From: a virus
DNA: 23,608 nt
Strand: one strand, 5' to 3'
Virus record (IMG/VR): IMGVR_UViG_3300023179_000518
Span: 1-23,608 of that record
In this document: piece after piece, positions 4,788 to 23,374 of the stretch
How the letters are laid out: each line of letters begins with the position of its first letter
How positions within the stretch are numbered: position 1 is the stretch's first letter
The notes under the pieces: model-generated
Seen by the model: only the letters and a program-made list of their open reading frames with translations
The model's database searches: none
What the model was told of the DNA's origin: nothing
Program-made: the position numbers and the translations under genes

Positions 4788-5009
4788 ATGTTGGTTTTAT
4801 CGAGAAAAAAGAACGAAGACATCATCATCGGCGAGGGTCCAAACAAAGTTACAGTTCGAGTGGTGGAGATAGTTGGCGACAAGGTACGGTTAGGATTTAT
4901 TGCCCCCGACGGCGTAACCATCATGCGCACAGAAATCATCGCCAAGAAACCGGAGACAAAGAATGGGCTGGAACGATCGGCTTCCGGAGGACCCTTTTAT
5001 CCCTTCTGA
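4788..5009 (+). CDS. csrA: CsrA/RsmA-type RNA-binding regulator, 73 aa
   Basis: The N-terminal 50 residues align by eye with CsrA: MLVLSRKKNEDIIIG matches the usual MLxLxRKxGExIxIG, followed by VTVRVVEIVGDKVRLGFIAP and VTIMRTEI. Arg47 falls at the position of the conserved RNA-contacting Arg of the VHREEI motif, and the N-terminal L4/R6 are present. CsrA dimers bind GGA motifs in the leaders of mRNAs and usually block ribosome access. The residue-9 position has Asn where Gly is usual, and the protein carries a tail of about 20 residues beyond the fold (ending SGGPFYPF). An AGGA site precedes the ATG. The tail overlaps the next gene by 47 bases. In a phage this could act on host mRNAs or on the phage's own leaders. 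Confidence 0.93.
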   Translation: MLVLSRKKNEDIIIGEGPNKVTVRVVEIVGDKVRLGFIAPDGVTIMRTEIIAKKPETKNGLERSASGGPFYPF

Positions 5010-5484: not shown

Positions 5485-6666
5485 TCACGAAGCAGCTTGC
5501 GCAAGCTCAAATAACTTTTCCAGCGGCAGAAGGCTGTCGGCTTGCTTCGTCTGGGCAACAGCCGCAATCTTATTCTCTTGCATAAGCCGGTCCAGCATGG
5601 CCGCCATGCCGCGGTCCAGCGTCGGCACGATCGCGGCCAACTTGTCGCGGTCCAAGTACACGCCGCCGGCCGTGACAGCATCGGCAAAGTCGTCGCCGAG
5701 CCATTCGCGGACCTGATCCACCGCGAGCTTTTCGAGGTCTTCCAGCGCGTAAACATTGCCCGTCGTAGTTTCGACGTTGTTGGTCAGGAAATCGCGTGCG
5801 GCTTTCTCTGTCACCGCAAACAAGACTTCTTCCGGGCGCGGGAGGCCGCCGGCGTCGTACAGCTTGTTTAAACGAGTAGTGCGGTCAAACGCGTCCACGG
5901 CAGCCGCAATCTTAATGCGCGTGTCGTGTTCGCGGGCTTTCTCGGGATTGCTTTCAACGATTTCGGCAAGCTTGCGCATCTCGCCAGCAGCGGCAGAGTC
6001 AAGGCGCGCAGCAAGCACAGCGCGATCGCGCAGCATCGCGCCGGCCACGGACGCCGCGCAGGCACCGGCGCCCGCCGTAAGCGACAATGTGTGTACATGC
6101 TCGTTAATATCGGCGGCGTAAGCGGCCGACTTTTCAAGAATCTTTTCAGCGATTTTGCGGCGGTCTTCAAATACGAACTCGTCGCGATACTTACTAAAAT
6201 GCTCCGCCGCAAACTTGACTTCCGTCGCGTTGCGCAACGGCCAGTGGCGCTCTTTGACGCCATTCTCGCCGACCCACACGATGGCGAAATCTTCGTCCCC
6301 GCGAGTGTTTAAATCGTCTGTAGCCGCAGCGGCAACTTTCTCTTCCAGTTCCGTTACGAGGCCCAAAATGCCAAAATACTTGGCAGACGAGTGAATCCGC
6401 TCGCTAATCTCGGCCGCTTGCTTGGGCTTAAAGTTAGCCCGCTTGTCGGCAAAGAACAGCGCCGAAAGCCATGTTGCGGGCGCGGTGTGGCACGGATACA
6501 GTTTATTTACTTGATCGGCGTATACGTGCCGGGGCAAATTGTCCGTGGCGTGTGTTCGTTCGTGGGTAGCGTTTTTGACAAAATCCGGGCACGGAAATAA
6601 TGTCGTCAACCGATGGGTTTCTTGCTGCGTAACATCTTGATTCTGGTCTAACGGAAGTTGTGTCAT
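5485..6666 (-). CDS. Hypothetical 393-aa protein, possibly structural
   Basis: The ATG on the minus strand at 6666 follows AGGA (complement of 6673-6676). A motif at about residues 45-75 (LPRHVYADQVNKLYPCHT followed by ATWLSALFF) recalls the 'YPIHT...V..A' motif seen in proteins encoded near phage head proteases and capsid genes; this is memory-based and uncertain. The middle is rich in alanine and charged residues and should be helical; around residues 195-220 there is a small hydrophobic Ala/Gly/Cys-rich segment (AGAGACAASVAGAMLRDRA). The C-terminus is a set of amphipathic helices ending LFELAQAAS. It is a single-gene transcript with its own terminator, and its start shares CATG (6664-6667) with that of the divergent primase-like gene, so promoters for either must lie inside the other's coding region. 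Confidence 0.8.
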   Translation of the reverse strand: MTQLPLDQNQDVTQQETHRLTTLFPCPDFVKNATHERTHATDNLPRHVYADQVNKLYPCHTAPATWLSALFFADKRANFKPKQAAEISERIHSSAKYFGILGLVTELEEKVAAAATDDLNTRGDEDFAIVWVGENGVKERHWPLRNATEVKFAAEHFSKYRDEFVFEDRRKIAEKILEKSAAYAADINEHVHTLSLTAGAGACAASVAGAMLRDRAVLAARLDSAAAGEMRKLAEIVESNPEKAREHDTRIKIAAAVDAFDRTTRLNKLYDAGGLPRPEEVLFAVTEKAARDFLTNNVETTTGNVYALEDLEKLAVDQVREWLGDDFADAVTAGGVYLDRDKLAAIVPTLDRGMAAMLDRLMQENKIAAVAQTKQADSLLPLEKLFELAQAAS

Positions 6667-9274
6667 GGGTTTTCCTGCCTCGCTAGTTGGCCGACATAAC
6701 TATTTAAACGCCCTGTCGGTGTTGGGGACTGAATTAGAAAAACCAAACTTTCCGGCGACAACTACGTGCCCGGCCTGTAAAGAACCCGCCTTGTATGTTT
6801 TCGACGACGTTCTCACAAGCGGTCTGTGGCTTTTCTGTACAGCCTGCAAAACGCATGGGGATATCATAACCTTTGGTTCTCAAATCTGGAATACAAGTTT
6901 ACCAGATACACTGGCAAAATTCAGCGATTTAAGCTTGATTGCCGCAAAAGAAGCTGGTAATGAAGAACCTGAATACGCAAGGTTTTTACGTAAATTTCGC
7001 GCGGCCGAGTCTTTCTGGGAAACGGCCGCAGCCCAAGTGTGGAATCACGCCGACGACCTTATAGCGTGTCGGCTGCGCGAACTGGGTTTGCGCTACGAAA
7101 TAAACGAGTGTTACGGGCTGGTAGGCGTAGCGCACTATGACCAGATAGCCGGGCTGTGCCGGACGCTGGGACGGCCTAAGCCAGTTATGTCGCGAGCGGA
7201 CGGCGCGGCGATTGTGTATCCGTTCTACGACCTACCGCAACGGCTTACTGGCCTGCTGATCACACAATACAACGAAACGTACGAAATACGACAAAACTTT
7301 ATACCCGTCTTGGGTTACAAAAAAATAAAACCGGAAGCCGGCTACTTCCTGCTCGACAAGTTGCTCGAAACGCCCGACCCAAGATATCGCGGCAACCAGT
7401 TTGTGTCTGAAGATATCTATTGGGTATTGCGCGCGCAGTTGAAACGAATCAGCCGCGGCGAAAAAGCGCTTCCCATTGTTGCCAGCTACAGCGGCGCAGA
7501 AGCCGAGAGTTACGGCATAAGCTGGGCGGCGTACCATTCCACTCCTCGTATTTTCCACGCCGCCGCTGTTTCTCCGGGGTTGATTAGCAGGGCTTGTAAC
7601 GCCCGCGGCTACGTTTCCGTGTTCCCGCCTCGCCGGCCGGCAGATGACGCCAATCTGCTAACTATCCGCGCCCAGACGAAAACATGGAACGAAATGCTTA
7701 AAGATACGCTCGTCAGCCTCAACGAGATCAACGCGCTTTCGTTTGCAACAAGACTCAACATCCTCCCCGATAAACTGGGCACATTTCTCAATAAACTCGA
7801 CCACCCATTTTCAGCCGGTTTTGCCGATCGAGTGCTGGCGGAGATTAAACAAACGCCGCATGGACCTCAGAAACGCTGGCTTATCATTGAACGAGACTCA
7901 GGTTGGTGGAGCTACACAGGTCGGCACCTGTGCAACGTCTGCCCCGTTATAACAAAAGTTATACAGACAGATTCCGGTGAAAAACTGTATGAAGGCACAA
8001 TAACCACATCGGCCGGCGAGACATACACGTTTAACGACCGCGCTAAACGCATAGAGCAGCTTGGCCTATTCGAATACTGTTCGGCTGTTTTGACGCCGCA
8101 CAAGAAACTCGTCTTGTATGACAAGCCGTTGAATCATCGCAGCCACATACTGGCGATGGAACTGCACCCACCAGAAATCGTATATCTGCCGACCAGTTAC
8201 GGTTGGGACGCACACAACCAAGTATTCAGATTCGATACCTACGAGATCACCAACACCGGCGACGTTCAAACGATACCGGCATGGCCGCGCAAAAATATCA
8301 AAGTAACGTTTAGCGCGCCTATGCCTGTCGCCCCGCTCCCCGTACGCGAATTCATCACGCCGTCGCATGAAAACGCTTACGTGTGGAGCGTGATCGCCGC
8401 CGTTGTTGGTAATCTCGTCGCCCCTATTCTGAACCGCGATCCCGCGCCCACTGCCGTTCCGCGCAACAATTTTGTAACAGTTGAGCAAATCGCCGCCGCG
8501 CTGTGCTGCCCGCTAGAACGCGCCACGGCAGAAAATAAATACGTAGCCCGCGGCTTCTTTAACAGGTTTCGCAAACCGTTGGCGTGGCCCACGCTCGTCT
8601 ACAACACCTTCAGCGATGACATGCTGAGCAACATTGTGCCGCGCTACTCTACGCAGCCAATGCTCGTCCGGTTGTCCGCCACCGCCGGCGCCGTAGCCCC
8701 CGGATATGGCTGGCAAACGCTGGTTAACACCACAGCGCCCGCAAGCGGAGACTTTTCGGCCCTGCGGCACATATTGCCGGCGTACATACAGTACTTGCTA
8801 GCAAACAACTTAAAAACGTTTAACAGCCAAAATAACGTGTATCTGCAAGTGTTAAAAAGCATGCACGACTGGCTGTTAAAGGTTTACGGCGCATCGTTTA
8901 ATCTCGCGTACGCCGAGGCTAATTGTTACACGCCAGAAACAACCCACGTCTCACTGTTCCGCGAACTTAATAGCGCGTTTTTATCGGGAAAACTGGTGCT
9001 TTTGCCGCAACCCAGACGCCGCGACCAACCCAAAAACTATTGTGTGCAGCAGAAAGAACATCTATGGTTAAACAGACACGCCGTTGATAGATATTGTTAT
9101 TCTGTCCGCAGCGTACCGCCAAACTGGGACGTCATAACCACTCTACTGCAGCAAATAGGTGTTTACACAGGCGAACAGAATATACACAATATGAACGGCT
9201 TGCTTTTAAACAAAGACTGGTGCCAACAGTTTTGGGCAGAAAATAACGAGGCTACAAACAAAGAAACGGGTTGA
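6665..9274 (+). CDS. Primase-type zinc-finger replication protein, 869 aa
   Basis: GGAAG at 6653-6657 precedes the ATG. Residues 35-64 form a zinc ribbon like that of DnaG-type primases: C35-x2-C38, then C58-x2-C61 and H64 in LFCTACKTHGD, leading to IITF. Residues about 135-215 resemble the part after the zinc finger in primases (LGLRYEINECYGLVG, then VYPFYDLPQRLTGLLITQYN), where a fold of the TOPRIM region begins. From about residue 410 the sequence resembles DUF927-type helicase regions (RHLCNVCPVITKV... and YGWDAHNQVFRF), but I find no GxxxxGKT/S Walker A loop where that ATPase would have one (region AAVVGNLVAPILNRDP). It may prime or load at the phage origin; helicase activity is doubtful. 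It is followed at once by an acidic protein gene. Confidence 0.75.
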   Translation: MGFPASLVGRHNYLNALSVLGTELEKPNFPATTTCPACKEPALYVFDDVLTSGLWLFCTACKTHGDIITFGSQIWNTSLPDTLAKFSDLSLIAAKEAGNEEPEYARFLRKFRAAESFWETAAAQVWNHADDLIACRLRELGLRYEINECYGLVGVAHYDQIAGLCRTLGRPKPVMSRADGAAIVYPFYDLPQRLTGLLITQYNETYEIRQNFIPVLGYKKIKPEAGYFLLDKLLETPDPRYRGNQFVSEDIYWVLRAQLKRISRGEKALPIVASYSGAEAESYGISWAAYHSTPRIFHAAAVSPGLISRACNARGYVSVFPPRRPADDANLLTIRAQTKTWNEMLKDTLVSLNEINALSFATRLNILPDKLGTFLNKLDHPFSAGFADRVLAEIKQTPHGPQKRWLIIERDSGWWSYTGRHLCNVCPVITKVIQTDSGEKLYEGTITTSAGETYTFNDRAKRIEQLGLFEYCSAVLTPHKKLVLYDKPLNHRSHILAMELHPPEIVYLPTSYGWDAHNQVFRFDTYEITNTGDVQTIPAWPRKNIKVTFSAPMPVAPLPVREFITPSHENAYVWSVIAAVVGNLVAPILNRDPAPTAVPRNNFVTVEQIAAALCCPLERATAENKYVARGFFNRFRKPLAWPTLVYNTFSDDMLSNIVPRYSTQPMLVRLSATAGAVAPGYGWQTLVNTTAPASGDFSALRHILPAYIQYLLANNLKTFNSQNNVYLQVLKSMHDWLLKVYGASFNLAYAEANCYTPETTHVSLFRELNSAFLSGKLVLLPQPRRRDQPKNYCVQQKEHLWLNRHAVDRYCYSVRSVPPNWDVITTLLQQIGVYTGEQNIHNMNGLLLNKDWCQQFWAENNEATNKETG

Positions 9275-10111: not shown

Positions 10112-11584
10112 ATGTCACGTAAAGAGCACCCGCAAAGCCGCGGCATGAAACGCAACAAGCAAAAACCACGATCCGCCAACAAGGTTCGTTTCTATCGCGA
10201 CACCGGCAGCGGCGGAGGAAACAAAAACTTCAAAGACGTTTCATCTGAGTTTGAAGACGACGACGAAAACGAAGAAGAAACAGACGACGACACACCACGT
10301 CGGTTAACTTGGCACAACACAAAAAAGGGCACCAGCGGCACGTTCATCGCGCTATATGAAGAAATGATTGATGACGTTCCGGAAGAATTAAGCGCCGCGC
10401 CAAAAGAACGTGTCGCCATGTACGAGCGAATCAAGGCCGTGATCAATTCTCGTCGCGCCGGCAATGTTGCAGATTCAGGCTCGGTCGTGTTTGATATTCC
10501 GTGGACTATGTTAGATTTTCCGCGAGACGGCGTAGGCCGCGAAAAGCGAGTTGACCGCGGCCACGTCGGTCACATCGTCCAGAATTATCACCCCAGTAGC
10601 TGGGCGACACCGGTTGTAACAATGAGGCCGTTATACGGTTCAAACGGCGCTATTGAAACGGTTCTGTACGAAATCACAGACGGTAACCATCGTCGGTGTA
10701 TTGCGCTTGAGCGCGCGTACGCAGACAGGCCAGAAGATTTGCGCACTGGAAAGAATCCGGTAAAAATCACCGTGTCTGTCAGCGAAGTTTCTTCAACGCA
10801 AGAAACAGCCGAATCGTTTACCGACAACAACGCCGGCGGCGTCAGACCCATGGCGGGCACTGATAACTGGCGCAACATGTTTGTCGCTGGTTTGCCAGAG
10901 GTTGTTGCAACAGTAAAGCTTGCCGCCGAATACGGGCTCGATGCGTCGGCGCCTGTGAACAAGCGCGGATGGCCGCGGTGTCACGGTAAGATCATCATGC
11001 ACATGTGTAACGTCACATTCGGCGGCGGGCCGTACGCGTTTCCGTGGCTTAAGGAAAAAGACGTACGCACAGCCTTGCGCATTATCACTGATTCTGATTG
11101 CGTTGGCGTGTACAAGAACACAGATGCTGTAAACAAGCAAAACTTCTTTGCCGGTCTGTGTCACTTTATTGCGTACTATTATCGCCCGGGTTTCGTTCAT
11201 GACATCGGGTTAAAGCACCTGCTTTCGCGACCGGATATCGTTGAACGAGCTATTGAAATGGGCAAGGACATTACGCCGGCAATCATTCAGGTTGAGATGC
11301 CGCACGTGACGTCCGCTATGCTTTCCCGCGATGAGTCGTTGCGGTATCACCGCGTCGCGCTCGCGTTGAAGCGGATGTACGTCACGAAAGTCCCGCCGCC
11401 GAAGATGCGCAGCAAAATCGACGGTTGGCCCGATTGCCCCGCAGAGTTGCGGCAATTATTTCACATAGCGCCGGAAATCACGGACGACAATAAGCGCGTA
11501 AAGCTTATCGCCGAGTTGCACACAAAACTCGACGCGTTGATGAAGAAAAAGCGCGCCAAAACCTCAAAAACTATTACAAGGTGA
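10112..11584 (+). CDS. ParB/Srx-fold domain protein with acidic N-terminal tract, 490 aa
   Basis: AAGGAATGAAG before the ATG gives a fair ribosome site. Residues 1-45 are basic (KRNKQKPRSANKVRFYRD), residues 46-60 acidic (FEDDDENEEETDDD), and residues about 125-235 have the layout of the ParB/sulfiredoxin-like domain: a first strand DIPWTMLDFPRD, a helix VDRGHVGHIVQNY, a PVV strand and the signature YEITDGNHRRCIAL (DGNHRR at 190-195). In this superfamily the DGxHR motif binds nucleotide (CTP in ParB) or phosphate and in some members cuts DNA. The remaining 250 residues, helical with HMCNVTFGGG and FAGLCHFIAYYYRPG, are unrecognised. It is not a plasmid ParB: the usual helix-turn-helix order is not apparent. 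Likely in one transcript with the primase-like group. Confidence 0.75.
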   Translation: MSRKEHPQSRGMKRNKQKPRSANKVRFYRDTGSGGGNKNFKDVSSEFEDDDENEEETDDDTPRRLTWHNTKKGTSGTFIALYEEMIDDVPEELSAAPKERVAMYERIKAVINSRRAGNVADSGSVVFDIPWTMLDFPRDGVGREKRVDRGHVGHIVQNYHPSSWATPVVTMRPLYGSNGAIETVLYEITDGNHRRCIALERAYADRPEDLRTGKNPVKITVSVSEVSSTQETAESFTDNNAGGVRPMAGTDNWRNMFVAGLPEVVATVKLAAEYGLDASAPVNKRGWPRCHGKIIMHMCNVTFGGGPYAFPWLKEKDVRTALRIITDSDCVGVYKNTDAVNKQNFFAGLCHFIAYYYRPGFVHDIGLKHLLSRPDIVERAIEMGKDITPAIIQVEMPHVTSAMLSRDESLRYHRVALALKRMYVTKVPPPKMRSKIDGWPDCPAELRQLFHIAPEITDDNKRVKLIAELHTKLDALMKKKRAKTSKTITR

Positions 11585-12029: not shown

Positions 12030-12102
12030 GCCGGCGTGGCACAATTGGCAGCGCAACTGATTTGTAATCAGTAGGTTGTGGGTTCGACTCCCACCGTCGG
12101 CT
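12030..12102 (+). tRNA. tRNA-Thr(UGU)
   Basis: A full cloverleaf can be drawn. The acceptor stem GCCGGCG pairs with CGTCGGC (one G-U). The D arm GCAC/GCGC has one A.C mismatch and the loop AATTGGCA. The anticodon arm ACTGA/TCAGT has loop TTTGTAA with anticodon TGT at 12063-12065. The variable loop is AGGTT, and the T arm GTGGG/CCCAC has loop TTCGACT. The discriminator base is T, and CCA is not encoded. It reads ACA (and by wobble other ACN) codons, which are frequent in this window. Confidence 0.93.
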
Positions 12103-13650: not shown

Positions 13651-13960
13651 AAAAGTCAAAGCGGCAATTAAAGCGTTTGAAGAAACCCAAATAAAGTACA
13701 AAAGCTTCGGCGCTTACGACACCGAGCCTGACGGCGTGTGGCAGCGTTTATTGCTCAAAACAATAGAAGGCAGCGGTCCAACACCGCCGCGCGACGCAGA
13801 CCGGTGGGAGCTATACTCGACCAGCATGGATTGCACAGAAGCCGCGCAGGCATTGTTCGACGCGGCGCTACACGCAATTCAAACAATCGAGAGTTGCCCT
13901 ATTAGAGATTTGGGCGCGTTGAAGCATTATCTCGAAGAGTATTGCTGGCGCTGTAGTTAA
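13610..13960 (+). CDS. Hypothetical protein, 116 aa
   Basis: The ATG at 13610 gives MAGTPTAKQLPIIEKVKAAI; the frame continues upstream only to a TTG with no ATG. The protein is helical: IEKVKAAIKAFEETQIKY, a middle EPDGVWQRLLLKTIEG, then TEAAQALFDAALHAIQTI and DLGALKHYLEEYCWR. No family recognised. It overlaps the upstream gene by 41 bases, and its stop shares the palindrome TTAA (13957-13960) with the stop of terL on the other strand. Confidence 0.6.
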   Translation: MAGTPTAKQLPIIEKVKAAIKAFEETQIKYKSFGAYDTEPDGVWQRLLLKTIEGSGPTPPRDADRWELYSTSMDCTEAAQALFDAALHAIQTIESCPIRDLGALKHYLEEYCWRCS

Positions 13961-15876
13961 TAACCAAAATACCGGTTGCCGATATCGTTGTCATCCCAAT
14001 CAGCGCCTTGTTGCGGCATAGCAGCCTCAGCAGCGCGATTGATACCTGCAAGCTGCGCAAAATTAGGCCACGACTGCGTAATGTGCCAGCACGCAGCGGC
14101 GCCTAAATTAACTGCCTGCGCAAAATCGTCTGTCAGCAGCGTATTGCGCGTAATGGTATAAATGTCTCCACCAAGCCGCGATTCAGTCTTGTTTTCAACC
14201 AGCGCCAAAAAGTCGGCGATCAAACCCGGCGAATCTTGCGACGACCAATCGTACTGAAAAAACCGAATCTGTTTCAGCTTAATAGCTTGGCAGGTGTACA
14301 GCAGCGATCGCGTTTTATCGAGGCTGTAGTGCGCGCGGTGATTAATCGGCGTCGACGGTTTGAACACCATCAAATCTTGCGTAGCAGCGCGCACAAGGCG
14401 GATTGCTAACACGCGCTCTAGATTGAATCCGGCCTGCACCATCACGGTTTCGCGGACCGTGCCGGCACCGGTGTAGTCGTGCGCAACAAACTCGCACTGA
14501 AACTTCTGCGACCACTTCATGCATTCCACGGCTTCCTGCAAATGATCGCCGCCAATAAGAAGCCTTTTCGCCCACAGCACGTCGATCGTGCCGTCGTGAC
14601 GAAATCCGAGAACAGCAAGCACAGTAAAGCTAATACCCTCTTCGCCGCCGCCTCCCCAGTCGATGGCAAGAACGCGGTGGCGATAGTTGCCGAGATTTTC
14701 ACAACACGCGGGTTCTGGTTCTTTCTTGTTCTCCCACGGCAGCAAACACGCGGCTTTTAAATCCGTCTCGCTAACAAGTTTCTGCCCGGTGTCTGTGCTT
14801 TCGCCCATGACTTCGTTGTAGAACTGCGCCGGCGTCATGTTGCCAAAGCCCTCGCGCTTTAGCAGCAGCGTTGACCATTTTTCCGGGTCTGAGAAGTGCA
14901 ACGGCAAAATAATCTGGGGCACATGATACCCAGCGAACTGCCATCGCCGTTCCGGATATCTATGCACCCACCTGCCGTGGCGCGGACTCACCGGCTTCTG
15001 ACATTTCGCGCACACGGTGCCGGGATACTTCTCGCTGATGTGATCGTTATACGGTCCGATCATCTTGTCGAGATCGTGATCGAGTGATGGTATGCTCCAG
15101 TGACCACACGAGTGACACGGAATAAACCACTCCGCTTGCGATGAACGTTTATACAAGCCGTAAATAATATTTTCGAGACTTTTTGGCGTCCCGGTGTAAT
15201 AGCTGGTCGCATAACGAGAGTACGACATCGTTTCTTGGATGATAGGAATATGATCCGGGTCCATGTCTTGAACCTCGTCGATGCACACGCGATCTGCGGA
15301 CACACCGCGAACGCGATCAGCATCAAGCAAAGCAAAACTGAACAACATCATCGAGTTGTTCTTAAACGATCGCTGGAGCACTGAGTTTTCCGTGGATGTA
15401 CCGCTCCACAAAACCTTTACCGGCGATTGATCGATGAACGGGCGGACGTAGTTGTTACTAAAACGACGAATCTGCTCGTACAGTGGTGTGATGAACAGCG
15501 TTTTGAAAAACGGTACCGCATTCGCCACGACCACACCGTGCGCGGCCAACGACGTCGATTTGGATACCTGCCGACCCGTACACCACACCTGATTCTTCGG
15601 TGTCAGGCAACGCATCAGCGGAAAAAAAGGCTGATGGTTTTTTAACGTGTACGGCTTACCATTAAGATTCAACAAGAGCGGCAACAAAGGTTCCAAGGAC
15701 GGGAAATGAAACTGTTTGGCCAACTCACCCATAACGCTCATACGCGTCTGCACGGATTTAAAATCACTGATGTCGATTGACATCAACTCCCCAAGCAGCG
15801 ATTGAATACCCTTATTAGGTATTTCAAGCGCCGCCGATTCTGACGGACTTTGTGTCCTAGTATTTGAAGGTGTCAT
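13957..15876 (-). CDS. terL: Terminase large subunit (ATPase plus nuclease), 639 aa
   Basis: This is the packaging motor that drives phage DNA into the procapsid and cuts it. Walker A is G101-RQVSK106-S107-T108, Walker B is CID200-E201 and the coupling motif is TGT at 228-230. A zinc ribbon insert follows, with C254, C257, C289 and C292. The RNase H-like nuclease has Asp406 (VLAIDWGGG), Asp467 (FVAHDYTG) and Asp583/584 (TDDFAQAVN). The length of 639 aa is normal for TerL. The ATG at 15876 has no ribosome site and abuts the ATG of the divergent gene (CATATG). A later ATG at residue 32, after GGGGAG, is an alternative start, and the frame further upstream to 16065 is unlikely. It is the only minus-strand gene in its neighbourhood, and no small terminase subunit is recognisable nearby. 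Confidence 0.93.
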   Translation of the reverse strand: MTPSNTRTQSPSESAALEIPNKGIQSLLGELMSIDISDFKSVQTRMSVMGELAKQFHFPSLEPLLPLLLNLNGKPYTLKNHQPFFPLMRCLTPKNQVWCTGRQVSKSTSLAAHGVVVANAVPFFKTLFITPLYEQIRRFSNNYVRPFIDQSPVKVLWSGTSTENSVLQRSFKNNSMMLFSFALLDADRVRGVSADRVCIDEVQDMDPDHIPIIQETMSYSRYATSYYTGTPKSLENIIYGLYKRSSQAEWFIPCHSCGHWSIPSLDHDLDKMIGPYNDHISEKYPGTVCAKCQKPVSPRHGRWVHRYPERRWQFAGYHVPQIILPLHFSDPEKWSTLLLKREGFGNMTPAQFYNEVMGESTDTGQKLVSETDLKAACLLPWENKKEPEPACCENLGNYRHRVLAIDWGGGGEEGISFTVLAVLGFRHDGTIDVLWAKRLLIGGDHLQEAVECMKWSQKFQCEFVAHDYTGAGTVRETVMVQAGFNLERVLAIRLVRAATQDLMVFKPSTPINHRAHYSLDKTRSLLYTCQAIKLKQIRFFQYDWSSQDSPGLIADFLALVENKTESRLGGDIYTITRNTLLTDDFAQAVNLGAAACWHITQSWPNFAQLAGINRAAEAAMPQQGADWDDNDIGNRYFGY

Positions 15877-16068
15877 ATGCGCAATTATGAGTATAGGCCG
15901 GATTTGCGCCGCGAACGTGGCGACGAAGACGAACCGGAACTGCAGTGGCTCGAAGATAGCGTAGACTATCTCGTCGCCTTGACTTTTACGGTGGTTTGCA
16001 ATCTTTGCAAACTTGTTTTTCTGTCGATACGTGGTATTTTCCAGTTGTTTGTGCAAACAAAACAATAA
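15877..16068 (+). CDS. Small single-pass membrane protein, 63 aa
   Basis: GAAGGTG at 15866-15872 precedes the ATG, which directly abuts the divergent terL start. The first 30 residues are charged (MRNYEYRPDLRRERGDEDEP), then a hydrophobic stretch of about 20 residues from YLVALTFTVVCNLCK to FLSIRG forms a membrane helix. It contains two inverted repeats at the DNA level near its end. No family recognised; a holin- or spanin-like role is possible only by size and position. Confidence 0.6.
   Translation: MRNYEYRPDLRRERGDEDEPELQWLEDSVDYLVALTFTVVCNLCKLVFLSIRGIFQLFVQTKQ
15994..16012. repeat. 8-bp perfect inverted repeat followed by T-rich stretch
   Basis: GTTTGCAA (15994-16001) and TTGCAAAC (16005-16012) are separated by TCT, then TTGTTTTT follows on the plus strand. 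The shape is like an intrinsic terminator, but the stem is AT-rich and lies inside the coding end of the small membrane protein. It may instead be an operator. Confidence 0.4.
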
Positions 16069-17270: not shown

Positions 17271-17573
17271 ATGACAAAAAACGAACAGCCGGCTATTACT
17301 AACATCTCGGTCGACGCAAGTAACGCCGACGTAGCGGCCGTTCTAAAAGCACAATACGGTCACTTAGAAAACGGCGAAGTGCGCGCGATGCTTGAAGTTT
17401 CATGCGGGCCAGTCTGGACAAACGACGAATTGCTTGAAGTGTTTGAGGTGTCACATTTTGAGCCGCCGTACGTTCACGTCATCCGAAAGGAAGACGGAAA
17501 ACGCGGCACCGTAATGTTTGTCGACACTCCTCGTTTTTATTTCTCGTTTACGGCAGAAGAAAACCATGAGTGA
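17271..17573 (+). CDS. Hypothetical protein, 100 aa
   Basis: Starts one base after the previous stop (TGAAATG), with coupling likely and no strong ribosome site. Residues 10-35 contain SVDASNADVAAVLKAQYG and a strand-rich second half follows (LLEVFEVSHFEPPYVHVIR, then GKRGTVMFVDTPRFYFSF). The alternation of strands suggests a small beta domain. No family recognised. It overlaps the following gene by eight bases. Confidence 0.6.
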   Translation: MTKNEQPAITNISVDASNADVAAVLKAQYGHLENGEVRAMLEVSCGPVWTNDELLEVFEVSHFEPPYVHVIRKEDGKRGTVMFVDTPRFYFSFTAEENHE

Positions 17574-18000
17574 AGAAAGACGCGAATACGACACCGGCGC
17601 CGTGCGCAGCGCAGACTGCGAAAAAACCCGCTACGATTTGATCTCTCCAATTGGTTTGCGTCGTTTAGCGGAAACATACGCAGAAGGCGCCGAAAAATTT
17701 GGCGCGTTCAACTGGGAAAACGGAATGCCAGTCACTGACCTGTTGAATCACGCCGTCGCGCACATCTACAAGTTCTTGTCTGGATCGCGCGATGAAGATG
17801 ATCTCGGTCACGCTGCGTGGAACATTATTGGCGCGATTCATTCGCTCGAAAAATGGCCGCACCTCAACGAGCAATGGCTTCGCGGTCCGAATTGCGAAAT
17901 ACCAGCGGCAGCCAAAACCGCGACGACTTCGCCGCCCGCAACAACTGAACAAACAAACAGTCAGTTTGAAAATTTGCGGCAAGCAATCTTCTCAAAATAA
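17566..18000 (+). CDS. dATP/dGTP diphosphohydrolase-family protein (DUF5664/PF18909 type), 144 aa
   Basis: Residues about 20-95 follow the family pattern as I remember it: R-Y-D-L-I-S-P-I-G-L-R-R-L, then AETYAEGAEKFGAFNWENG, the helix LLNHAVAHIYKFLSG, and a metal-binding-type DEDDLGHAAWNIIGAIH. Members form all-alpha MazG-like enzymes that remove diphosphate from purine dNTPs; MazZ of 2-aminoadenine phages is a member. The last 35 residues are Ala/Thr/Gln-rich (AAAKTATTSPPATTEQ) and look like a disordered tail. The ATG at 17566 overlaps the previous gene. No PurZ or DatZ partner is seen in the window, so a modified genome cannot be inferred from this gene alone. Confidence 0.85.
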   Translation: MSEERREYDTGAVRSADCEKTRYDLISPIGLRRLAETYAEGAEKFGAFNWENGMPVTDLLNHAVAHIYKFLSGSRDEDDLGHAAWNIIGAIHSLEKWPHLNEQWLRGPNCEIPAAAKTATTSPPATTEQTNSQFENLRQAIFSK

Positions 18001-19140: not shown

Positions 19141-19428
19141 ATGCCAACTGCATGTGCTTTAGCAGAAAATCTAACTGCCGGCGCGGGCATAACAATGCCA
19201 CCGGGCACAATAAAACGTATTCATGTAAATCAACACGTTATCCGCGAAAATAAAAAGACAGGCGCCAAAGAAAACGTCGTCACCATTCAGTGGCGCAACA
19301 AATCGTATCGCGTCAGAACGGTCAACATCGCGGGCACATCGGAAGTTATTTACTCGCCGGATAAACCGCTTTCGTGCGGCGCGCGTGTGTGGGTAGAAAC
19401 ACGAGCCGAGGTTACAGCCACGGTATGA
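19141..19428 (+). CDS. Conserved IHVNQHVIR-motif hypothetical protein, 95 aa
   Basis: GAGG at 19132-19135 is five bases before the ATG (CGAGGTTGCCATG, nearly the leader of the 2241 gene). The segments RIHVNQHVIRENKKTG and YSPDKPLSCGARVWVETRAE bracket a strand-rich middle (VVTIQWRNKSYRVRTVNI). I remember this motif pair from small, unannotated bacterial and phage proteins; no function is assigned to my knowledge. The start and end motifs suggest a compact beta-barrel. The stop overlaps the ATG of the next gene as ATGA. Being first in the operon that leads to the DUF1257/DUF2997/AAA+ genes, it may belong to that module. Confidence 0.75.
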   Translation: MPTACALAENLTAGAGITMPPGTIKRIHVNQHVIRENKKTGAKENVVTIQWRNKSYRVRTVNIAGTSEVIYSPDKPLSCGARVWVETRAEVTATV

Positions 19429-19727
19429 CGCCTTACACCGCCGAAGAAGAAGCGAAAGACGACCGCCGAATATTCGAGGCGTACGACGCGCTTACAACGC
19501 TCCAAGAACAATACAAAGACATTATTGCTATTCCAGAAGTCATTTCTATTCGCGATGTCGCTGAATACCGGCTTAACACCGAACACGGCATCAAACAGTT
19601 CAAAGAAGTCTATAGCCGCGACATAGCGGAACGCGTATTGCGCGTCATATTGGAAAAAAACTTTGTGACGCCCGCGATTATCGAAAACGCTATTGTGACT
19701 GCGCTACTTACCAACAAGGAACAATAA
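19425..19727 (+). CDS. Hypothetical helical protein, 100 aa
   Basis: Start shares ATGA with the previous stop, so translational coupling is likely. The protein is helical and acidic at the start (YTAEEEAKDDRRIFEAYDAL), with later helices DVAEYRLNTEHGIKQFKEVY, AERVLRVILEKNF and TPAIIENAIVTALLTNK. No family recognised. The next ATG follows immediately after its stop, and the small AAGGAACA before it serves the DUF1257 gene. Confidence 0.62.
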   Translation: MTPYTAEEEAKDDRRIFEAYDALTTLQEQYKDIIAIPEVISIRDVAEYRLNTEHGIKQFKEVYSRDIAERVLRVILEKNFVTPAIIENAIVTALLTNKEQ

Positions 19728-20090
19728 ATGTCTCACATCGTACAGATCAAGACAGAAGTAAAGGACGAAAACGCAATTTTCGCCGCCGCTCGCCGGTTGG
19801 GGCTTGAAACGCCCACCAAGGGCAAGTTCAACGTATACGCCGTTACTCGCGAGGGTATCGGCGTGAAGCTTCCCAACTGGAATTATCCGGTTGTGTGCAA
19901 CGTTGAAACCGGCGCCGTCGATTTCGACAACTACAACGGCTCGTGGGGCAAGCAGGAAGAACTCGACAAGTTCTTGCAGGCTTACGCGGTCGAGAAAGCT
20001 ATCTACGAGGCCCAGAAGGGCGGGTACTCGGTGTATGAAGAAACACTGCCCGATGGTTCGATCAAGCTTAACATCACGGTGGAGGGTTGA
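19728..20090 (+). CDS. DUF1257 (Ycf35-type) protein, 120 aa
   Basis: Begins MSHIVQIKTEVKDENAIFAA, as DUF1257/Ycf35 members begin (MSHF-T-IKT-I-D), continues with PVVCNVETGAVDFDNYNGSWG, then the typical FLQAYAVEKAIYEAQKGGYS and a C-terminal strand DGSIKLNITVEG. The family occurs in plastid and cyanobacterial genomes as ycf35 and in many bacteria; its function is unknown. Full length. It is translated with DUF2997 (three bases later) and the AAA+ gene (nine bases after that), the set it also keeps elsewhere. The call is by pattern recognition. Confidence 0.8.
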   Translation: MSHIVQIKTEVKDENAIFAAARRLGLETPTKGKFNVYAVTREGIGVKLPNWNYPVVCNVETGAVDFDNYNGSWGKQEELDKFLQAYAVEKAIYEAQKGGYSVYEETLPDGSIKLNITVEG

Positions 20091-20093
20091 TAC

Positions 20094-20285
20094 ATGAGTA
20101 AGACGATTCAAGTGGTTGTTTCCCCCAAGGGCGAAACGAAGATCGAAACTTTCGGCTTTACCGGCAGTTCGTGTCAGGACGCCTCGCGCGCTCTTGAGCA
20201 GGCGCTTGGCGCCAAGACTGACGAGCAGTTGACCGGCGAATATTACGCCGCCGCGAATGAGCAGCAGATCGAAACGCAAAACTAA
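20094..20285 (+). CDS. DUF2997 protein, 63 aa
   Basis: A strong GGAGGG at 20081-20086 precedes the ATG. The sequence MSKTIQVVVSPKGETKIETF followed by GFTGSSCQDASRALEQALGA and a final GEYYAAANEQQ fits the DUF2997 pattern I remember: an initial I-x-V-x-P-x-G strand, a G-x-x-G-x-x-C motif, and a helix ending E-Y-Y. The single Cys in GSSC is conserved in the family as I recall it. Function unknown; often next to DUF1257 and a Ycf46-like ATPase, as here. Confidence 0.8.
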   Translation: MSKTIQVVVSPKGETKIETFGFTGSSCQDASRALEQALGAKTDEQLTGEYYAAANEQQIETQN

Positions 20286-20294
20286 GGGTGAATA

Positions 20295-21788
20295 GTGTCG
20301 CTCGAAAAAGAAATTAAAGAACTGGTGTGTGCGGGTTTTTCTGGTATTTGGGTAGAGACCGCCGAATGCGACGACGCCGTACAGGCCATCAAGAAGCTGG
20401 CCGAAGAGCGCAAGTGGGGTTTTGATATCTGGGACATCGACCGGCAGCTTTATTCCGGCGCCAAGCCGGCGCCCGGTCCGCTGCAGGCGCTCCGTATTCT
20501 GGACGAACCCAAGACAACCGAGACGCAGATTCTTGTGCTCAAGAATTTCCACCGGTTCCTCCCCAACCCCGAGGTTGTACAGACGCTGGCAAACCGCGTC
20601 GTGCAGGGCAAGGGCACGGGCCAGTACGTAATCATCGTCTCGCCGACCGTGGCGCTGCAGCCCGAGGTTGAGAAGTTGTTTACGGTTGTGCATCACGAGC
20701 TTCCCGACGAGGAACAGCTTCGGACGATTTGCAACGACTTGTTCACCGACGATACGACCGGCTTTGAAAAGCCGACCGACGAACAAGTTAATAGCGTCGT
20801 CGAAGCCGCTCGCGGTTTGACACGGCAGGAGTCCGAGAACGCCTATGCGCTGTCGCTCGTCCGGCACAACAAGCTGGAGCCCGACACCATCTGGGGTATC
20901 AAGGCGCAGACGCTCGAAAAGAGCGGCACCATGACGTTGTATCGCGGCGATGCGAACTTCGAGAATCTGGGCGGTCTCGAAAACCTCAAGCAGTTCTGCC
21001 TGCGCGCCATGCGCAAGCAGGGCGAAAAGCACGTCGACCGCCGGCCCAAGGGCGTTTTGCTGCTTTCTCCTCCGGGCTGCGGCAAGTCGCAGTTCGCCAA
21101 GGCGCTGGGCAACGAAGTCGGCCGCCCAACCGTCATGCTCGACTTCGGCAGCTTGATGGGCAAGTTCGTGGGCGAATCCGAGGGCAACATGCGCCGCGCT
21201 CTTAAGCAGGTCGACGCCATGGCCCCGTGCGTCCTGTTCGTCGACGAGATCGAAAAGGGTCTTGCCGGCGTCGGTAGCTCAGGCCAGACCGACAGCGGCG
21301 TGTCCGCTCGTTTGTTTGGCACGCTCCTGACGTGGCTCAACGACCACACGTCGGACGTGTTCTTCATCGGCACCTGCAACGACGCCAGCCAGCTTCCGGC
21401 GCCGTTCGCACGCGCCGAGCGCTTCGACGGCGTGTTCTTCGTGGACCTGCCGGGCGAAGAACAGCGCAAGCAAATCTGGGATATCTATTTGAATCACTTC
21501 AATATCGACAAGGCGCAGGCCAAGCCCGACGACACCAACTGGACCGGCGCCGAGATCAAGTCTTGCTGCCGGCTGGCGTCACTTCTGGACATCCCACTTG
21601 TGGATGCCGCCCAGAACGTCGTGCCGGTGTCGGTCACCAGCGCCGAGCAGATCGAATCGCTGCGCAAATGGGCCGAGGGCCGTTGCCTGTCAGCCGACAA
21701 TGCCGGCCTGTATGCCCGTGTAGGGCGTCGGACGCCGGTAGCCGCCTCGCGGCCGCGCAAGGTATCTGCAGCCCCCAGCGAAAACTAA
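20295..21788 (+). CDS. Ycf46-like AAA+ ATPase, 497 aa, GTG start
   Basis: AAGGGTG precedes a GTG start at 20295. Residues 1-200 match the N-terminal layout of Ycf46: LEKEIKELVCAGFSGIWVET, a strand ILVLKNFHRFL, then YVIIVSPTVALQPEVEKLF. The AAA+ core follows GIKAQTLEKSGTMTLYRGD and NLGGLENLKQF, the linker typical of Ycf46. Walker A is G261-C-G-K264-S265, Walker B VLFVD317-E318, sensor 1 Asn362 in FFIGTCND, and the arginine-finger region ARAERFDG. AAA+ proteins usually form hexameric rings that remodel a protein partner, here perhaps DUF1257/DUF2997. The last 60 residues are Ala/Arg/Pro-rich and tail-like. Codons in the AAA+ core end in G or C about 88% of the time by hand count. A 442-aa minus-strand frame over this gene is a shadow. 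Confidence 0.88.
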   Translation: MSLEKEIKELVCAGFSGIWVETAECDDAVQAIKKLAEERKWGFDIWDIDRQLYSGAKPAPGPLQALRILDEPKTTETQILVLKNFHRFLPNPEVVQTLANRVVQGKGTGQYVIIVSPTVALQPEVEKLFTVVHHELPDEEQLRTICNDLFTDDTTGFEKPTDEQVNSVVEAARGLTRQESENAYALSLVRHNKLEPDTIWGIKAQTLEKSGTMTLYRGDANFENLGGLENLKQFCLRAMRKQGEKHVDRRPKGVLLLSPPGCGKSQFAKALGNEVGRPTVMLDFGSLMGKFVGESEGNMRRALKQVDAMAPCVLFVDEIEKGLAGVGSSGQTDSGVSARLFGTLLTWLNDHTSDVFFIGTCNDASQLPAPFARAERFDGVFFVDLPGEEQRKQIWDIYLNHFNIDKAQAKPDDTNWTGAEIKSCCRLASLLDIPLVDAAQNVVPVSVTSAEQIESLRKWAEGRCLSADNAGLYARVGRRTPVAASRPRKVSAAPSEN

Positions 21789-21820
21789 TCTACGCCCGCG
21801 GCGCTCACTGTGTAGTGAAA

Positions 21821-21902
21821 AGCGGGTGAAGAGCGGGTGAAGAGCGGGTGAAGAGCGGGCGAAGAGCGAGTGAAGAGCGGGTGAAGAGCGAGTGAAGAGC
21901 GA
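21821..21902. repeat. 11-bp tandem repeat array (AGCGGGTGAAG), seven copies plus a partial
   Basis: Starting at 21821 the unit AGCGGGTGAAG repeats every 11 bases at 21821, 21832, 21843, 21854, 21865, 21876 and 21887. Variants are AGCGGGCGAAG at 21854 and AGCGAGTGAAG at 21865 and 21887. An eighth, degenerate copy at 21898 (AGCGAATG) contains the start codon at 21903. The period is close to one DNA turn, so a protein could bind one face of the helix. Each unit also carries a purine run GAAGAG and a GTG. Confidence 0.92.
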
Positions 21903-22423: not shown

Positions 22424-23374
22424 ATGTCAACAGAAACAGAAAACAGCGTAGAAACAGATAACAGCGTCGCTACGTCCGCCGCTGAACTGCGCCAAACAAT
22501 GGGCGCGGTTAAATTATCTTTCTCGTGGCTTGGCACACAGCGCAAGTTATCCGACACACAGACCAAGCAAGCAGCCGATACGTTTCACGCGGCGACCGAT
22601 CTTGTTACTGCGTCTAAGCGCCTGATCGACACCAAGAACGCAACGTACCGCACGCTGACAGCGCTCAAAAGTCAGGCGTCGGGTTACTGGCGCAGCATGA
22701 CGCTGCCCTATCCGCAAGACGGTATTCGGCTTATTAAACAGTCTGACATTGCGGCATTTGAAGAAAAGATGCGGGAGTTCAAGGAGCAACTTGCCGCAGC
22801 GGCTGCCAACTTGCAGTTGGAGTACGAGTCCATCAAGGAAGCGGCGCGGGAAAAACTGGGAGACCTGTTTAATTCCGCCGATTACCCGCCCACCCTTGAA
22901 GGCGTCTTTGATATCAAATGGGAGTACCCGCCGGTCGAGCCGCCGAACTATCTAATGACGTTCAACCCCGAGTTGTACCAGCAAGAGCAGTCTCGCATCC
23001 AGCAGCGCTTTGAAGCGGCGGTTATCATGGCCGAAGACGCTTTTGCTGAACAGCTTCAAGAGATGATTTCACATCTCATTGAGCGACTGACCGACGAACC
23101 AGACGGTACGAAAAAGACGTTCAAGGCGTCAGCCATCGAAAACTTTAAAGAGTTCTACGAGAATTTCCAGAACATGAACGTGCGTTCAAACGCGCAACTG
23201 GAAGGTTTGATTCGGCAGGCCAACGAGCTTGTGTCTGGTATCGACGTCAAGGATTTGCGCAAAAACAACAATTTGCGGCAAAGTTTGACGCAGCAGATGT
23301 CAGGCGTAAAAAGCGCTCTCGACAGTTTAATCACGAACGCGCCGCGGCGGCGTGTGATGCCCATGGGCGAGTAA
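22424..23374 (+). CDS. Coiled-coil protein, 316 aa (DUF3150-like?)
   Basis: AAGGGA at 22415-22420 lies before the ATG. After an acidic N-terminus (MSTETENSVETDNSVATSAA) comes VKLSFSWLGTQRKLSDTQTK, a motif I recall from bacterial proteins, several planctomycete, near the DUF3150 group; the name is uncertain. Then follow LTLPYPQDGIRLIKQSDI-like residues (MTLPYPQDGIRLI), a long helix (FEEKMREFKEQLAAAAANLQ), the segment DLFNSADYPPTLEGVFDIKW and further helices ending in a basic tail RRRVMPMGE. The family often stands next to AAA+ ATPase genes, as it nearly does here. Its stop shares TAATG with the next gene. Confidence 0.7.
   Translation: MSTETENSVETDNSVATSAAELRQTMGAVKLSFSWLGTQRKLSDTQTKQAADTFHAATDLVTASKRLIDTKNATYRTLTALKSQASGYWRSMTLPYPQDGIRLIKQSDIAAFEEKMREFKEQLAAAAANLQLEYESIKEAAREKLGDLFNSADYPPTLEGVFDIKWEYPPVEPPNYLMTFNPELYQQEQSRIQQRFEAAVIMAEDAFAEQLQEMISHLIERLTDEPDGTKKTFKASAIENFKEFYENFQNMNVRSNAQLEGLIRQANELVSGIDVKDLRKNNNLRQSLTQQMSGVKSALDSLITNAPRRRVMPMGE

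Follow-up and report, generated by a model that had tools for sequence, protein, structure and literature searches.

What does a gene set known from plastids do in the genome of a phage, and which genes belong to it there? The question is raised by the virus record IMGVR_UViG_3300023179_000518, of which positions 1–23,608 (hereafter, the window) were analysed as a whole and proved to be a fragment of a tailed phage, as judged from a TerL matching PHROG 675 (E 4e-55), with several close relatives of 198–205 kb. A preliminary description of the window had placed at 19,141–21,788 a row of five genes including relatives of ycf46 and ycf35, long-known plastid genes with, to our knowledge, no assigned function. 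The five consecutive open reading frames (ORFs) were confirmed, with junctions of −4, 0, +3 and +9 bases. What is added here to the trio of Ycf46-type AAA+ ATPase, DUF1257 and DUF2997 is a putative fourth partner of the DUF3150 family, together with a parallel in plasmids.

The Ycf46, DUF1257 and DUF2997 genes

All members of the trio lie on the plus strand and matched the Pfam profiles expected from the preliminary description. The DUF1257 protein (Ycf35-type, 120 aa; 19728–20090), a paired subunit, scored 23.6 bits with PF06868 (E 6e-5), the cut-off being 22.2, the 63-aa DUF2997 protein (20094–20285) matched PF11211 with E 4.2e-15, and the Ycf46-like classic AAA+ ATPase, starting at a GTG codon (20295–21788), matched PF00004 (E 1.6e-27) and phrog_8638 (E 8e-85). 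The catalytic motifs of the ATPase are intact, namely the GCGKS Walker A, the VDE Walker B and the sensor-1 N362.

That the three genes form a module, as had been proposed, was borne out in the close phage loci, where both small genes adjoin the AAA gene in 47 of 48. Random association is likewise not what was found when 119 Planctomycetota genomes, drawn evenly, were searched: DUF2997 occurs in 18 and DUF1257 in ten, all ten being within the 18 and having the two genes at most 1 kb apart (hypergeometric p = 4e-10). Conservation of the trio is far beyond chance.

A DUF3150-like gene as candidate fourth partner

From the comparison of the loci, the best-conserved partner of the trio appears to be a gene outside the five-gene row, at 22424–23374 on the plus strand, coding for a predicted helical protein of 316 aa. 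This protein shares an iterated hidden Markov model (HMM) family with proteins above the PF11348 (DUF3150) cut-off from the distant phage loci L062 (E 3e-17) and L060 (E 1.7e-9). A close homologue in L013 matches PF11348 directly with E 0.004, below the cut-off, and hhalign comparison of the 22424-type family with plasmid DUF3150 gave 95.7%. In addition, an AlphaFold model of a 22424-type protein (pLDDT 84) found as best match a viral DUF3150 protein (E 7e-16, TM 0.73–0.78). Taken through its relatives, profiles and model, the 22424 protein is most consistently read as a divergent DUF3150 member.

A DUF3150-type gene was found near the AAA gene in 43 of 48 close phages, 11 of 16 distant phages and nine of 11 Planctomycetota-type loci, and stays with it even where AAA identity is down to 28–33%. 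Among the 119 Planctomycetota genomes, six strong DUF3150 copies were found in four genomes, 2–5 kb from DUF2997. No paper naming DUF3150 was met in the literature searched, and one phage DUF3150 protein gave no tblastn match with named phages. The 275-aa protein gp94 of mycobacteriophage Dylan, encoded beside an AAA gene, was also considered as a DUF3150 candidate; a 275-aa Dylan protein has weak similarity in fold (E 0.004), but profile comparison of gp94 was unsupportive.

Distribution and phylogeny of the module

Sixty-three loci were obtained by scanning viral contigs, and iterated profiles detected all three trio members in the distant phages L047, L048, L050, L052–L054 and L062. Among cultured phages with related genes, the trio is present in Rhizobium phage L338C (gp50/52/53), Rhodobacter phage RcTiptonus (gp60/62/63) and Agrobacterium phage JP1, in records that carry generic names only, while the mycobacterial Corndogviruses have the AAA gene only. 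DUF2997 was not found by tblastn in named phages; iterated profiles then recovered it in L066, L068 and L069. The related genes of RcTiptonus, L338C and the Corndogviruses make gene-removal tests feasible with laboratory strains.

The cellular scan covered one genome per species, and its results hold among the matches listed. There, Planctomycetota rank first, with a best identity of 57% and a next group at about 50% that includes Blastopirellula marina, whose copy lies on a 4.3-Mb scaffold. Of the 69 other cellular loci listed, 29 have both DUF1257 and DUF2997 near the AAA gene, spread over Bacillota, Myxococcota, Verrucomicrobiota, Bacteroidota, archaea and others. A gene of the Fer4_12/radical-SAM type (4Fe-4S) adjoins the AAA gene in 13 of 80 cellular loci listed, and is a lead on the cellular function of the set; Fer4_12 (PF13353) was found in none of nine large phage records. 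These cellular loci, from Clostridia, Gastranaerophilales and others, are L095, L097, L099, L106, L109, L111, L121, L125, L127, L134, L135, L143 and L148.

In a quick IQ-TREE analysis of 88 AAA proteins, in which the root was not inferred, nine Planctomycetota sequences joined the window and its phages in a supported grouping. The branch around it consists mostly of viral and mobile-element copies, nearly all of them DUF3150-linked. The cyanobacterial Ycf46 was placed elsewhere and did not group with the window AAA. The preliminary description had equated the trio with that of Cyanobacteria and plastids, which is correct for the three families, often adjacent also in the cellular sets of cyanobacteria, plastids, bacteria and archaea, and for the layout of the AAA protein, whose N-domain has no Walker A; it does not apply to the ATPase lineage, nearer to Planctomycetota. 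The phylogeny thus places the window module, as far as can be read from sequences, in a branch of Ycf46 modules that belongs to mobile elements; it is sister to the Planctomycetota copies, distinct from the cyanobacterial module and has DUF3150 added.

Two planctomycete loci showed further genes near the module. In L073 (5146–8117 and 14995–15687), it lies near a ThiF-family gene, and TnsC/TniQ-like genes were recognised by eye; near another copy, a small protein without family match (L154:118-420) looks ubiquitin-like by eye.

The AAA+ ATPase and the DUF1257-DUF2997 pair

The ATPase consists of an N-domain of about 230 aa without Walker A, followed by an intact AAA domain. In an alignment with 16 divergent relatives, G263, K264, D317, E318, N362, R373 and R376 were invariant, and the solved structures nearest to the family profile are those of CDC48/p97. 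In some phage loci the AAA gene is split in the Walker B region, at about residues 315–320, by a group I intron (Rfam RF00028, 69–73 bits) accompanied by an HNH-type ORF some 190 aa long (L040:8939-9721, L042:6384-7171, L043:8508-9295, L049:8954-9741 and L051:8934-9716); the same split was detected by tblastn in L041, and the window gene is intron-less. A Ycf46-like AAA protein with 29% identity is also encoded by the Streptococcus satellite phage Javan368 (L065), in the stretch of which that was read no match to the DUF1257, DUF2997 and DUF3150 profiles was obtained.

In DUF1257, the MSHxxxI start and the C-terminal region are conserved; in DUF2997, G13 is invariant and G24 and C27 nearly so, one phage DUF2997-like protein (L060) being without the Cys. 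The two genes are separated by a median of 2 bases in the close phage loci and are fused into a single protein in two Clostridia loci (L089 and L092). Because such fusions occur naturally, the two proteins are likely to act together. Four distant phages initially without a DUF1257 match (L055, L058, L060 and L064) carry near the AAA gene a small MPCxxVR-type protein that aligned with the DUF1257 profile (78% probability, E 2e-5), so that the pairing may extend further than Pfam matches show.

A model of the DUF1257-DUF2997 fusion, built on an alignment led by the natural fusions (pLDDT 84, pTM 0.78), predicts for DUF1257 a beta-alpha-beta4-alpha order plus two strands, to which DUF2997 would add two strands and a helix. 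On this model it is plausible that the pair makes one continuous structural unit. A fold search of the PDB returned RnlA as best match (E 0.005), then TBP, KA1 and the spermine-synthase N-domain, and the predicted beta-alpha-beta4-alpha order is compatible with such two-layer folds; since TM-scores are low, no fold family is claimed.

DUF3150 and recombination genes on plasmids

DUF3150 is carried by more than 1,100 plasmid records, 969 of which are typed conjugative. Seven plasmid neighbourhoods were viewed, and in five of them RecT/Bet and a lambda-type exonuclease lie beside DUF3150. The complete cluster of SSB, RecT/Bet, lambda-type exonuclease, AAA, DUF3150 and VWA is present in Pseudomonas, IncC Klebsiella, Citrobacter and Marinobacter plasmids, and Photobacterium pAQU1 has a matching cluster with no annotated SSB. 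In the remaining two plasmids, DUF3150 and VWA are accompanied by a primase-type gene in one, and by AAA and topoisomerase 3 in the other. For the Bet and Exo proteins of SXT, a role in recombination is proven (PMC3118119; PMC10838148).

A mobile-element pairing of DUF3150 with an AAA+ motor is seen also in IncC-like and other MOBH-type conjugative plasmids, but the motor is of a different AAA subfamily: AAA_5/CobS with a CobT/VWA partner in the plasmids, PF00004 with DUF1257 and DUF2997 in the window. A VWA domain gave no match among the window proteins scanned, which did not comprise every ORF, and the window ends 0.2 kb past the DUF3150-like gene. The SSB-RecT-exonuclease neighbours of the plasmids recur in part (SSB and nuclease) in L083, a Bacteroidetes contig encoding a Ycf46-type AAA, DUF1257, RadC, DUF2997, DUF3150, SSB, a SWIM protein and a PDDEXK nuclease. 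By these family assignments, L083 unites the phage-type trio with the plasmid-type context of DUF3150. In distant phages with AAA and DUF3150, helicase, primase, RuvC-like resolvase or ThyX genes are nearby.

Proposed function and alternatives

Ycf46 and ycf35 are linked through phages to the DUF3150 of plasmids, and therefore a testable hypothesis on function can be put forward; the DUF3150 parallel is the first concrete lead on the role of this long-unexplained gene set. We propose that phages and mobile elements use the four proteins as an AAA+ remodelling machine, which would act on a protein-DNA assembly while DNA is replicated or recombined. Its composition, as read from conserved gene neighbourhoods, is well supported, and the preliminary reading of the locus as a remodelling-type system is retained; to the function we give an even chance. 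The motor would be the Ycf46-type ATPase, working as a hexameric ATP-driven ring, on which DUF1257-DUF2997 would sit as a single small adaptor unit, and the helical DUF3150 protein would be the element-specific partner coupling motor to target. As the phage genome is replicated, recombined or repaired, the motor would then pull at a protein-DNA assembly or take it apart, in the same place that the MoxR/CobS AAA protein and VWA would take in conjugative plasmids, with DUF3150 beside SSB, RecT/Bet and exonuclease.

Several observations weigh against this proposal. In the fetched neighbourhoods of the trio-bearing phages L047, L048, L052, L066, L068 and L069, DUF3150 is absent, so it is not obligatory. 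We know of no tested function for DUF3150, and a PDB fold search with its model returned nothing below E 0.001. The ATPase N-domain (first 230 residues) had no match in a PDB sequence search, and for this reason it is not claimed as a degenerate AAA domain. Reading by eye, without a profile scan of all proteins, picked out no gene for SSB, RecT or an exonuclease near the module, either in the window or in the 200-kb relatives read (L013, L022 and L035). Finally, genes for replication are widespread in phages, and the neighbours seen in distant phages come with no background rate.

In a wider and more tentative reading, DUF3150 may be the core of a remodelling machine associated with recombination or replication and served by an exchangeable motor, MoxR-VWA in plasmids and Ycf46-DUF1257-DUF2997 in phages and planctomycete elements. 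If so, plastid and cyanobacterial ycf46 and ycf35 would be part of a general AAA+ motor-adaptor cassette that takes one target module or another, DUF3150 in mobile elements and ferredoxin or radical-SAM proteins in cells.

An AAA+ ring with a dedicated partner is also found in the MoxR-VWA chaperones NorQ/NorD and RavA/ViaA (PMC13036017; PMC9976466). The likeness is an analogy only, the window AAA being of another subfamily, with unrelated partners and no VWA found among the proteins scanned. Metal insertion driven by the AAA protein of NorQ/NorD (PMC13036017) nevertheless fits a second explanation, in which, as it may in cells, the motor with DUF1257 and DUF2997 would load, repair or activate an Fe-S or radical enzyme, the phage target being an enzyme of nucleotide metabolism. 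The DUF2997-ycf35-fed7 ferredoxin cluster of cyanobacteria (PMC4284462), the Fer4_12/radical-SAM neighbours described above and the nearly invariant Cys of DUF2997 point in the same direction. These radical-SAM-type neighbours, however, are not universal even in cells and are missing from the nine large phages, the phage branch carries DUF3150 instead, and the L060 protein does without the Cys; we thus consider cofactor maturation unlikely in the phage.

We likewise doubt that the motor is a virion-assembly chaperone that folds or processes proteins of the tail, the head or packaging, as has been reported in the two-tailed Acidianus virus. Such a role has been proposed for MoxR-vWA chaperone pairs in jumbo phages (PMC7824862), and a TerL gene is present in the window, at 13957–16065. 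The gene had been described as next to the module; it actually lies at a distance of about 3 kb, on the opposite (minus) strand, no structural gene was seen to track the module in the loci read, and the same gene set is found in the genomes of bacteria and archaea, planctomycete chromosomes among them. Lastly, the possibility that an AAA+ unfoldase takes apart a complex of host defence or keeps rival phages out is very improbable: the AAA protein does match models of the defence ATPase IetA (E 4e-18) and the module is patchy across Planctomycetota, but general AAA models score better (CDC48, E 1e-26), no match to an IetS-like (subtilase) or other effector was found among the proteins scanned, leading us to reject IetAS, and almost every member of the phage lineage has kept the module.

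Companion genes and surroundings of the module

The two genes at the head of the row had been suggested as additional parts. The first (19141–19428, plus strand) codes for a 95-aa protein with an IHVNQHVIR motif (PHROG 8676, E 2.5e-17); 47 of the 48 close phage loci have it, but it is absent from all 16 distant ones and from the planctomycete and other cellular loci examined. The suggestion stands for the close lineage only, where the gene is a lineage-specific companion and not core. The second (19425–19727, plus strand), coding for a helical 100-aa protein without family match, is a variable companion found in 33 of the 48. Neither, then, always accompanies the trio.

An 11-bp tandem repeat of GAAGAGCGGGT type occupies 21807–21901, in the gap directly after the AAA gene. 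Near DUF3150, an 85-aa protein is common to phage and planctomycete loci, as is DUF6915; therefore Planctomycetota are proposed as hosts, this shared gene content suggesting, at the level of sequence, that the phage infects members of the phylum.

Elsewhere in the window, the ORF at 6665–9274, previously called a primase, had no Pfam match and no significant PHROG match. A 490-aa protein with a ParB-like DGNHR motif, also without Pfam or PHROG match, is encoded at 10112–11584; in Corndogviruses a ParB-like gene likewise lies a few genes away from the AAA gene. A collagen-like Gly-X-Y repeat protein is found at the window edge (2–640), and a short ORF beginning MLVLSRKKNEDIIIGEG (4788–5009) resembles, by eye only, the post-transcriptional regulator CsrA. 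A tRNA-Thr with anticodon TGT was detected at 12030–12102 by ARAGORN and Rfam, and the product of 17566–18000 resembles dATP/dGTP pyrophosphohydrolase families (phrog_801, E 5e-9).

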